From Planococcus liqunii (GTDB taxonomy: Bacteria; Bacillota; Bacilli; Bacillales_A; Planococcaceae), in assembly GCF_030413595.1 (NCBI RefSeq), contig NZ_CP129238.1, forward strand, positions 3,224,001-3,288,000: a stretch of 64,000 nt of DNA. The letters run 5' to 3'. Both the position numbers and the translations under genes were made by a program. The notes below the pieces were generated by a model, which saw only the letters and a list, made by a program, of their open reading frames with translations, made no database searches and had not been told where the DNA came from. Positions 2,694 through 63,241 of this stretch are shown one piece after another (positions within the stretch are counted from its first letter, which is position 1; every line of letters begins with the position of its first letter).

Positions 2694-2765
2694 GCGCATC
2701 CCCTTTTTCTCTTATCCCTCAAAGACCCCAATTAGTTTGCACTGTCTGGATTCTAGTACTTGCCG

Positions 2766-3041
2766 GAGCTGAACAGGCGCTTCCGCTTTTCTTGATGTCC
2801 AGCTGCAGCGCCTAGCTCCTCGGGTCGTAAGCCACTTTGGCTGTGCGGCTGGAAATACGCCGCTTTGCCAAATCGTCTTACGCCGGTCGGAGCTAAACAG
2901 GCGCTTCCGCTTTTCTTGATGTCTAGCTGTAGCGCCTAGCTCCTCGGGTCGTAAGCCACTTTGGCTGTGCGGCTGGAAATACGCCGCTTTGCCAAATCGT
3001 CTTACGCCGGTCGGAGCTGAACAGGCGCTTCCGCTTTTCTA
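2766..3041. repeat. Tandem intergenic hairpin repeat, period 124 bp, about 2.2 copies
   Basis: The segment AACAGGCGCTTCCGCTTTTC recurs at 2772, 2896 and 3020, exactly 124 bases apart. The intervening sequence is almost identical apart from a few C/T changes. The outer ends pair (AGGCGCT with AGCGCCT). An inner stem joins GTAAG (2829) to CTTAC (2879). It fills the space between the SE1832-like gene and yfmM and carries no credible coding frame. It belongs to the family also found at 6903, 47197 and 54221. Here the core is the subtype with GTAAGCCACTTTGGCTGTGCGG. Confidence 0.85.
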
Positions 3042-18309: not shown

Positions 18310-18340
18310 GAAAGGCTGATCCATTTCGGATCAGCCTTTC
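18310..18340. terminator. Terminator hairpin, left copy flanking element 1
   Basis: A perfect 13-bp stem: GAAAGGCTGATCC with GGATCAGCCTTTC, loop ATTTC. It is nearly identical to the hairpin at 18803-18834 on the other side of the element. It would serve the acyltransferase gene. Confidence 0.8.
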
Positions 18341-18343
18341 GCA

Positions 18344-18798
18344 TGTAGACAAAAGAATGTTTAAGCTTGAGAGATGAATGAACATCCAACCAGACATGCC
18401 GGATCCTCCTTTACAGCCGGACGCGTTCCGCGGGCTCACACCGAACTAACTTGGAACGTACGTCCCGAGTGGATTTCGGCACTTCGTTGCTACGCTGCCC
18501 CGCTGGAGTCGCCGGCTTTCACTTCGGATCCTTAACATGAAGATTATCTAGAGGTATCGCTTTTCTTCTTGAACTGTCTGTTTAAGCTTCAATCGGATGA
18601 GCATGCATTTTCTAATCAAAGAGAGACGCTCCAACCGGCCCGGCCACGAAGACTCCTGTGGGAGCAGCTCAGGTCGAAGGCCCCGCAGGAGCAAGGTTTT
18701 CAGCGACGAGGAGACTGAGGCCGAGCCCACGGAAAGCGAAGTGGCCGGGCCGGTTGGGTTTATGCATGTAGATTCATTTCATTTAAACTTTGTCTACA
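18344..18798. mobile_element. Non-coding element 1 with ends TGTAGACAAA / TTTGTCTACA (455 bp)
   Basis: The ends are perfect 10-bp inverted repeats. An inner 17-bp inverted repeat joins CCAACCGGCCCGGCCAC (near 18632) to GTGGCCGGGCCGGTTGG (near 18740). Between them lies the GACTCCTGTGGGAGCAG...CCCGCAGGAGCA...GAGCCCACGGAAAGCGAAG pattern common to Bacillales intergenic repeats. The left part carries CAGCCGGACGCG and CACTTCGGATCC. A second copy is at 46666-47157. No convincing reading frame exists. It is bracketed by duplicated terminator hairpins (18310-18340 and 18803-18834). Calling it mobile is an inference from the paired ends and the duplicated flanks. Confidence 0.6.
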
Positions 18799-18802
18799 GT
18801 CT

Positions 18803-18834
18803 GAAGGCTGATCCATTTTCGGATCAGCCTTTTC
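18803..18834. terminator. Terminator hairpin, right copy flanking element 1
   Basis: GAAGGCTGATCC / GGATCAGCCTTTTC with loop ATTTT. It differs from the 18310 copy only by single-base indels. It lies just past the stop of the leftward ABC exporter gene. Confidence 0.8.
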
Positions 18835-46639: not shown

Positions 46640-46660
46640 ACAGCTGTATTGAACAGCTGT
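46640..46660. terminator. Terminator hairpin, left copy flanking element 2
   Basis: ACAGCTGT-ATTGA-ACAGCTGT with an A-run on its left, giving a T-run on the minus strand. 19 of 21 bases match the copy at 47163-47183. It would end leftward transcripts from the VOC operon. Confidence 0.7.
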
Positions 46661-46665
46661 GAGCT

Positions 46666-47157
46666 TGTAGACAAAAGAATAGTTACACATGATAGCCGAA
46701 TAAGTATACGACTGAAGAGAGAATACTGAATCCTCCGTTTCAGCCGGACGCGCTCCGCGGGCTCGCGCCGCGCTGGAGTCACCTTCTTTCACTTCGGATC
46801 CTAAACGTGAAGCTATCGAAAGGTGTCGCTTTTCTTTTTTAACTAGTTAGTTTGGCTTCAATCGGATCATCGTTCACTTTCGAATCAAAGAGAGCCACCT
46901 CAACCGGTCCGGCCACGGAGACTCCTGTGGGAGCAGTGAAGGAGCAACGCGACGGAGCGACGAAAGTTGAAGACCCCGCAGGCAAGACATTGGCCGAAGG
47001 CAGTGAGGCCAAGTCTTTGCGACGAAGCTAGCGCAGCGATGCAGGAGCAGCGGGTTTCGAAGCAGCGAGGAGGCTGAAGCTGAGCCCACGGAAAGCGAAG
47101 TGGCCGGTCCGGTTGATTTGATGCATCGCTATTCATTTCATCTAAACTTTGTCTACA
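46666..47157. mobile_element. Non-coding element 2 with ends TGTAGACAAA / TTTGTCTACA (492 bp)
   Basis: A homologue of element 1 (18344-18798). It has the same 10-bp inverted ends and the same internal order: CAGCCGGACGCG...CACTTCGGATCC...AATCAAAGAGAG...GACTCCTGTGGGAGCAG...GAGCCCACGGAAAGCGAAG. The inner inverted repeat TCAACCGGTCCGGCCAC / GTGGCCGGTCCGGTTGA differs from copy 1 at its outermost pair on both sides (C-G there, T-A here). It lacks about 50 bp present in copy 1. It holds an extra module with TCTTTGCGACGAAGC and the 21-bp sequence shared with 34726-34783. The terminator hairpin is duplicated on its flanks. It is non-coding. Confidence 0.6.
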
Positions 47158-47162
47158 AGTTG

Positions 47163-47188
47163 ATAGCTATATTGAACAGCTGTTTTTT
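47163..47188. terminator. Terminator hairpin, right copy flanking element 2
   Basis: ATAGCTAT-ATTGA-ACAGCTGT followed by a plus-strand T-run. Two substitutions from the left copy weaken one arm. Confidence 0.65.
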
Positions 47189-47196
47189 ACCTTCCG

Positions 47197-47471
47197 AAGC
47201 TAAACAGGCGCCTTCACTTTTCTTTTTGTCCAGTTGCGGCGCCCAGCCCCTCGAGGTCGCTTCGGTCTTTCGGTGATGGCAAAAAGCGCCATCTCCTCAA
47301 GTCCTCCAGCGCTTGTCGGGACTAAGCAGGCGCCTTCACTTTTCTTTTGTCCAGTTGCGGCGCCCAGCCCCTCGAGGTCGCTTCGGTCTTTCGGTGATGG
47401 CAAAAAGCGCCATCTCCTCAAGTCCTCCAGCGCTTGTCGGGGCTATGCAGGCGCCTTCACTTTTCTTTTTC
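47197..47471. repeat. Tandem intergenic hairpin repeat, period 121-122 bp, two copies
   Basis: AGGCGCCTTCACTTTTC recurs at 47206, 47328 and 47449. Each unit carries CCCCTCGAGG, CTCCAGCGCTTGTCGGG and an inner hairpin GATGGC/GCCATC, the same subtype as 54221 in inverse orientation. The last bases of the VOC gene, including its stop, are read from the repeat end. Confidence 0.85.
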
Positions 47472-62111: not shown

Positions 62112-62229
62112 CTCTCATCTGCCAGATCCCGTCTTGCCGGATCTGTAGGATTTAGCACCTTTCCAAGCATCGCTTGTTGGTTGCCGGGCATCATAGGGCC
62201 TATTCCCTCCGCCTCTCTTGATAAGAGTA
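62112..62229 (-). ncRNA. SAM-I (S-box) riboswitch controlling metYX
   Basis: Minus-strand aptamer: CTCTTATCAAGAGAGGCGGA, GGCCCTATGATGCCCGGCAA, GGTGCTAAATCC, and the closing strand AGATGAGAG pairing with CTCTTATC-type P1. These are the invariant S-box blocks in order. The intrinsic terminator follows at 62061-62094. The gap 62008-62357 holds nothing else I can see. Confidence 0.95.
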
Positions 62230-63094: not shown

Positions 63095-63127
63095 AAACAT
63101 TACAAATCGAATAACGTACATCACTTT

Positions 63128-63241
63128 CTTATCCAGAGAAACCGAGGGACAGGCCCTATGACGTTTCGGCAGCGGGTTCGCTATATGCGAACACTGTGCT
63201 AATTCCTGCAGATGCTTTTTTTGCATCTGGAAGATGAGAAC
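63128..63241 (+). ncRNA. SAM-I (S-box) riboswitch controlling metN
   Basis: Starts CTTATCCAGAGAAACCGAGG, continues GGCCCTATGACGTTTCGGCA, TGTGCTAATTCC, and closes with AGATGAG, which pairs with CTTATC. The blocks are those of the S-box family, slightly divergent from the metYX copy (for example TGTGCTAA in place of GGTGCTAA). Confidence 0.9.

Follow-up and report, generated by a model that had tools for sequence, protein, structure and literature searches.

The window analysed here, 64,000 nucleotides of the Planococcus liqunii genome (NZ_CP129238.1, positions 3,224,001 to 3,288,000), contains an element, termed element 2, that stands between two nearly identical copies of a terminator hairpin. 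This raises the question of how a single terminator came to lie on both sides of an insertion. The initial annotation of this DNA proposed that a bidirectional terminator, with an A-run, a hairpin and a T-run, had been split and its hairpin duplicated. The duplication of the terminator hairpin at element 2 is real and general. We consider it very probable that element 2 is a MITE moved in trans by an IS1182-family DDE transposase that targets hairpins, with the duplication arising via an extruded hairpin. The present analysis adds three points to the initial annotation, namely that the element belongs to the MITEs and has ends of the IS1182 type, that what was duplicated is the target site, in a length that varies, and that autonomous relatives behave in the same way.

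Element 2, element 1 and their empty sites

Element 2 and its flanking hairpins occupy the following positions of the window.

46640..46660, no strand assigned: left hairpin copy of element 2, ACAGCTGT-ATTGA-ACAGCTGT, with the A-run outside
46661..47162, + strand: element 2, a MITE of 502 bp with left end GAGCTTGTAGACAAAAG and right end CTTTGTCTACAAGTTG
47163..47183, no strand assigned: right hairpin copy of element 2, ATAGCTAT-ATTGA-ACAGCTGT, with the T-run outside

The two hairpin copies, 21 bp each, agree at 19 of 21 bases, and the A-run is found only on the outer left and the T-run only on the outer right, all as initially annotated. The annotated length of 492 bp is correct for TGTAGAC...TCTACA; the comparison of copies, which had been suggested for defining the ends, shifted them 5 bp outward on each side. 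The terminal inverted repeats are imperfect and 15 bp long, (G/C)AGCTTGTAGACAAA and CAGACTGTAGACAAA; GAGCTTGTAGACAAA and CAGACTGTAGACAAA match at 12 of 15 positions. Since 46661-47162 holds no ORF of at least 100 aa, element 2 encodes no transposase, and it was thus filed as a MITE with IS1182-type ends and not as an IS1182 element. Element 1 is built like element 2, around a hairpin that is unrelated, as the annotation had noted, and its left outer bases deviate from the family consensus.

18312..18338, no strand assigned: left hairpin copy of element 1
18339..18803, + strand: element 1, a MITE of the same family, 465 bp
18804..18831, no strand assigned: right hairpin copy of element 1, with one extra loop base

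The empty site that the annotation had proposed to look for was found in the closest relatives of the element 2 site, genomes G007 and G004 (94% and 92% identity in the flank, respectively). Both lack the element and carry AAAAAACAGCTGTATTGAACAGCTGC, which holds one hairpin and leads into a right flank that can be aligned, GCTAAACAGGCGCC. The left hairpin of element 2 is the same as this single hairpin except for the last base. In the right copy, which has decayed, 2 of the 21 bases are altered. A double hairpin in relatives lacking the element, the arrangement that would speak against a duplication by insertion, was seen in none of the 30 orthologous loci displayed, of 46 genomes matched. At the element 1 site, the insertion is common to G004 and G007, and among the 12 loci displayed G023 has a single GGCTGATCC-GGATCAGCC hairpin without the element. 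The third site is that of L117 in G031, with a duplication of 41 bp, where 20 of 46 genomes were matched and 12 loci displayed. A single hairpin without an element was found there in eight of the 12 (G002, G006, G008, G009, G016, G034, G044 and G045), a different hairpin in G011, and the element in G031 and G037. In G027, the element lies in the opposite orientation with the hairpin on both sides, and the same terminator was thus hit at least twice; it is occupied in three species (L321 of G027, L312 of G031 and L317 of G037).

Both neighbour genes of element 2 run leftward. Its left hairpin copy is intact and gives a terminator-like match, with shuffled sequences averaging 1.3 such matches, and folded as DNA the left and right copies reach -8.3 and -1.4 kcal/mol, respectively. 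Judging from its sequence, the left copy can serve leftward transcription. The neighbours of element 1 converge, and both of its copies fold well (-15.0 and -11.6 kcal/mol), though this comparison of hairpin intactness with gene direction covers two loci only and is anecdotal. According to simple and thus rough ORF calls, the ORFs next to the element are convergent at 34 of 56 loci and divergent at no locus, the remaining loci being +/? (7), -/- (6), +/+ (5) and ?/- (4). After insertion, the left copy with the A-run would still stop leftward transcription and the right copy with the T-run rightward transcription. As each direction would thereby keep a hairpin with a T-run, the insertion may be nearly silent.

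Two pairs of tandem repeats, of 121 bp (97%) and 124 bp (98%), lie at 47219-47460 and 2764-3011 of the window; one of the pairs adjoins element 2 on the right, where related sequence is also present in G007 and G004. A plasmid search with trhO returned 6 records at 60-80% identity.

Copies of the family and the length of the duplication

A DNA search with element 2 against its own genome yielded 85 matching pieces, so that parts of the element also match other places of this genome. The left-end pattern GAGCTTGTAGACAAAAGAATTTTTA, with up to 3 mismatches, occurs at 24 places in the own genome and at 0 for the reversed control, and a first script found both ends at 26 of 31 candidate stretches. 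Nearly all of these copies have terminator-like hairpins on both sides, and nearly all stand at different terminators. Within the genus, the left end was detected in 14 of 46 genomes with one pattern and in 19 of 46 with another, and at one mismatch it was absent from the other 215 genomes of the family that were searched. The named records with the left-end 20-mer belong to Planococcus or Planomicrobium, except for one Lentisphaerae MAG with an exact match (L185), and two further exact matches were obtained in viral contigs.

The delimited set comprises 76 copies from the genus, of 86-662 bp, that differ in their junctions; the own genome contributes 24 of these. Mechanical ORFs of 101-178 aa are present in 12 of the 76, and none of the 10 scanned matches Pfam at 0.01, suggesting that the elements are non-coding or at least without a conserved ORF. 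They are thus short and lack a conserved protein, are multicopy with terminal inverted repeats, generate a target-site duplication and have an autonomous relative with the same ends, which are the features of a MITE.

With up to 15% mismatches and end offsets of up to 3 allowed, 57 of 76 copies have a duplication, which measures 18-41 bp (mean 27.6, s.d. 5.1); they include 18 of the 24 own-genome copies. All 57 duplicated sequences differ from one another, in agreement with the annotated view that it is the hairpin that is shared and not a sequence. Clean duplications, defined by no offset and at most 2 mismatches, number 46; 39 of them are centred exactly on the hairpin dyad, and in 44 the midpoint lies no more than 0.5 nt from it. 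Duplication length follows hairpin span (r = 0.71), and the first base is A in 44 and the last base T in 43 of these 46. The hairpin span extends 0-11 bp, mostly 2-3, past the duplication, so that cutting does not always occur at the outermost base pair.

When the 40-base flanks were folded, a hairpin reaching the element was found on the left in 69 and on the right in 66 of the 76 copies, compared with 23 of 135 stretches taken 200 bp further out. Together with the count of left ends, this supports the earlier argument that coincidence does not explain the pattern. The A-run lies outside on the left in 46 and the T-run outside on the right in 42 of the 57 duplicated copies, and the inner sides carry an A-run or a T-run in 2 and 5 of 57 only. 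These runs, the duplications themselves and the empty sites at three loci bear out the proposed splitting of a bidirectional terminator with duplication of its hairpin.

The script found no duplication in 19 of 76 copies. Several of these, element 1 among them, are near-misses through divergence or a loop indel, and in L124 two different hairpins flank the element. A few copies (e.g., L106, L113 and L137) probably had their right ends mis-assigned and are still counted among the 76.

Autonomous relatives of the IS1182 family

IS1182-family elements of 1.5-1.85 kb with near-identical ends were found in other genera and on plasmids. Their typical ends are CAGACTGTAGACAAA...TTTGTC(T/G)ACA(G/A)TCTG; in several, the right end equals the MITE right end letter for letter, and L308 (Sutcliffiella plasmid) and L248 (G250) have a left end, CAGCTTGTAGACAAAG, like that of the MITEs. 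The transposase domains of these relatives are PF13751, PF05598 and PF01609. Against the IS1182 model NF033551, with a cut-off of 270, L261 and L237 scored 466 and 481 bits, respectively, and the second ORF of L226 (249 aa) alone scored 235.7 bits, below the cut-off. Within the genus, 18 of 46 genomes encode PF13751 proteins, and a protein search with the L226 transposase (1e-20) detected relatives in 59 of 261 genomes.

Two elements of the genus, L226 (1531 bp) and L224 (1660 bp), are each bracketed by identical hairpins, of 33 bp and 36 bp, respectively, and have ends of the TGTTGAGAAA/TGTCGAGAAA kind. The longest IS target, that of L237, measures 52 bp with a 23-bp stem. A palindromic direct repeat, found without using the ends, spans the transposase in 20 of 30 loci, and in all 20 of those displayed it abuts the element ends within one base. 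Five plasmid loci brought the set to 35, of which 30 yielded both ends. A separate script gave an exact shared hairpin repeat of 19-52 bp in 22 of 35 IS loci, a count that favours hairpins, as the best-folding flank was chosen among several candidate ends, and that misses the repeat of L257 and leaves L311 outside. Eight of the 30 loci with both ends have no shared repeat by script, among them L257, for which the other analysis found one. A different hairpin stands at each end in L235, L243, L245, L246, L248, L307 and L309, and also in L311, which recombination between copies may explain.

The own genome has neither a PF13751 match nor a match to the L226 transposase at 1e-20, and we thus infer the mobilizing partner from its ends and behaviour. 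Among the 19 genomes with the left end, the L226 query matched only in G025 (remnants) and G044 (partial), and PF13751 was present in 7. The MITE-bearing genome G044 contains a partial PF13751 element, cut by the contig end, whose end CAGAGTGTAGACAAAAG directly follows a hairpin. No large autonomous copy was found among the near-identical MITEs of G031, G034, G037 and G006, where the delimited copies reach 594 bp at most and some copies hit contig ends or had no recognized right end (e.g., L099 and L109). A high-scoring IS1182 group of G001 and G036, with the end AAAAGGGGCTGTCCC, proved a false lead as the partner and was reused as a negative control; none of the 5 distinct flanks of this other subgroup of the genus folded into a hairpin reaching the element, the group being only partly delimited and the stretches taken too short. 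The long duplications of the IS1202 family were also considered and dropped, since the transposases with matching ends are IS1182.

Several further observations concern the relatives. L226 (2037-3418) and L224 have the transposase frame interrupted at one common position, a shared GGAAAAAAGC, possibly a programmed frameshift; IS1182-family genes annotated as two frames are mentioned in PMC3711429. In G025, 8 matches retain only a C-terminal stretch of approximately 54 residues of an IS1182 transposase (89% identity to L226), and at L157 of this genome the end CAGAGTGTTGAG adjoins a hairpin. The G025 remnants probably represent another MITE that arose by deletion. Many MITEs contain GC-rich repeats (window 46730-47120) that recur in IS1182 elements (L261, L253 and L224), in non-coding sequence close to one end, with 70-95% identity among the matches listed.

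Proposed insertion route, alternatives and known systems

Taken together, the sequences show that the element sits at a terminator hairpin, which is single in empty sites and present whole on both sides of the element in a duplication of variable length centred on the dyad, and that autonomous elements with very similar ends duplicate whole hairpins as well. We propose that the target palindrome is extruded, as a cruciform or a single-strand hairpin, which would bring its two feet next to each other whatever the length of the hairpin. The two 3'-OH ends of the element would then join to the 5' feet, one on each strand, and repair or fill-in would copy the hairpin on each side. As the feet of an extruded hairpin are neighbours, the duplication would be as long as the hairpin. 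On balance, we favour the wider view that an IS1182 subgroup across many Bacillota, together with its MITEs and through a transposase of ordinary geometry, makes hairpin-dictated duplications of 18-52 bp that leave a working terminator on each side, an insertion that spares the host.

A variant that differs in the extrusion step only, with the same transposase, is that the target is a hairpin on single-stranded DNA, at the lagging strand or in a transcription bubble. It too predicts dyad-centred duplications, and the targets are indeed strong hairpins at gene ends; however, for a whole hairpin to be duplicated both strands must be joined, and a cruciform accounts for this more directly. This variant seems possible but rather unlikely. 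Another alternative is ordinary insertion, with the duplication length set by the transposase, into A/T-rich gene ends that contain terminators by chance. DDE transposases generally make target duplications of family-typical length. The prevalence of A as the first and T as the last base of the clean duplications fits insertion into A/T-rich gene ends. Yet the lengths range over 18-41 bp in the MITEs and 19-52 bp in the IS elements while staying centred on the dyad, for which a fixed stagger cannot account, and L056 and the IS targets of L226, L242 and L263 lack A...T ends, leaving this explanation very unlikely.

Two further alternatives concern the origin of the second hairpin. Had the element inserted between tandem terminators that already existed, copies with two different hairpins such as L124 would be expected; however, the two sides have the same sequence in 57 of 76 copies, and the single hairpin of the empty sites refutes this order of events at the three loci concerned, so that as a general account it is exceedingly improbable. 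The regular presence of hairpins at both flanks might instead suggest that they are part of the element and travel with it. This is refuted both by the differences among all the duplicated sequences and by the three loci at which the hairpin is the terminator of relatives without the element, and it retains practically no probability. Extrusion of a target hairpin thus remains the preferred reading. The length of the duplication depends on how the target folds, which would be expected if DNA hairpins form in vivo at terminators and are the true substrate, and the copies of the element would then be natural records of hairpin extrusion. They also suggest why the elements can reach dozens of copies at gene ends.

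ISfinder gives direct repeats of 0-60 bp for the IS1182 family. The palindromic targets of this family are credited to Siguier et al. (2015) in the parts of Furi et al. (PMC4923244) and PMC5678879 covered, and Wan et al. state in the latter that no detailed data were given there. The present elements share the family, the palindromic targets and the variable repeats; what they add is a repeat length governed by the hairpin and a family of MITEs. According to the same parts of PMC4923244 and PMC5678879, IS1272 and TnSha1 likewise have an IS1182-family transposase and hairpin targets, including terminators, without a sequence consensus; their insertion removes the target hairpin wholly or in part without generating a duplication, whereas the elements described here keep and duplicate it. 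The pattern of IS1272-type inverted-repeat-replacing transposition, with the hairpin removed and nothing duplicated, was accordingly not what was found. Wan et al. (2017; PMC5678879) drew duplication of a whole stem-loop, by joining at the 5' feet of the extruded palindrome, as the possible pathway b of the model in their Fig 13, and the parts of that paper covered contain no cases of it. In the open-licence literature, whole-hairpin duplication was encountered only as this model branch, within the parts of the sources covered. Judged by their junctions, which show the products predicted for it, the present elements look like a natural realization of the pathway b branch. The palindromic targets of the IS1182 family are known, and the duplication of whole hairpins with a length set by the hairpin is the variant described here. 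Hairpin-losing relatives of the IS1272 type and hairpin-duplicating ones can in this way be linked in one testable scheme.

ISEfa7, annotated as IS1182-like on Enterococcus faecium plasmids, shares the ends CAGACTGTAGACAAA...TTTGTCTACAGTCTG. Of two copies analysed, one (L310) has a 20-bp hairpin repeat on both sides, and the flanks differ in the other (L311). Unlike the MITEs, ISEfa7 is autonomous, and its protein is 55% identical to the L261 transposase.

Group IIC introns also insert at terminator hairpins, by means of intron RNA with a reverse transcriptase, and unlike the present elements are not known to make a target duplication. A group II intron was considered as a candidate in this window and rejected, the only Rfam matches at gathering score being two SAM riboswitches. 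These are located at 63126-63240 (+) and 62112-62227 (-), on opposite strands and pointing apart, with approximately 0.9 kb between them.
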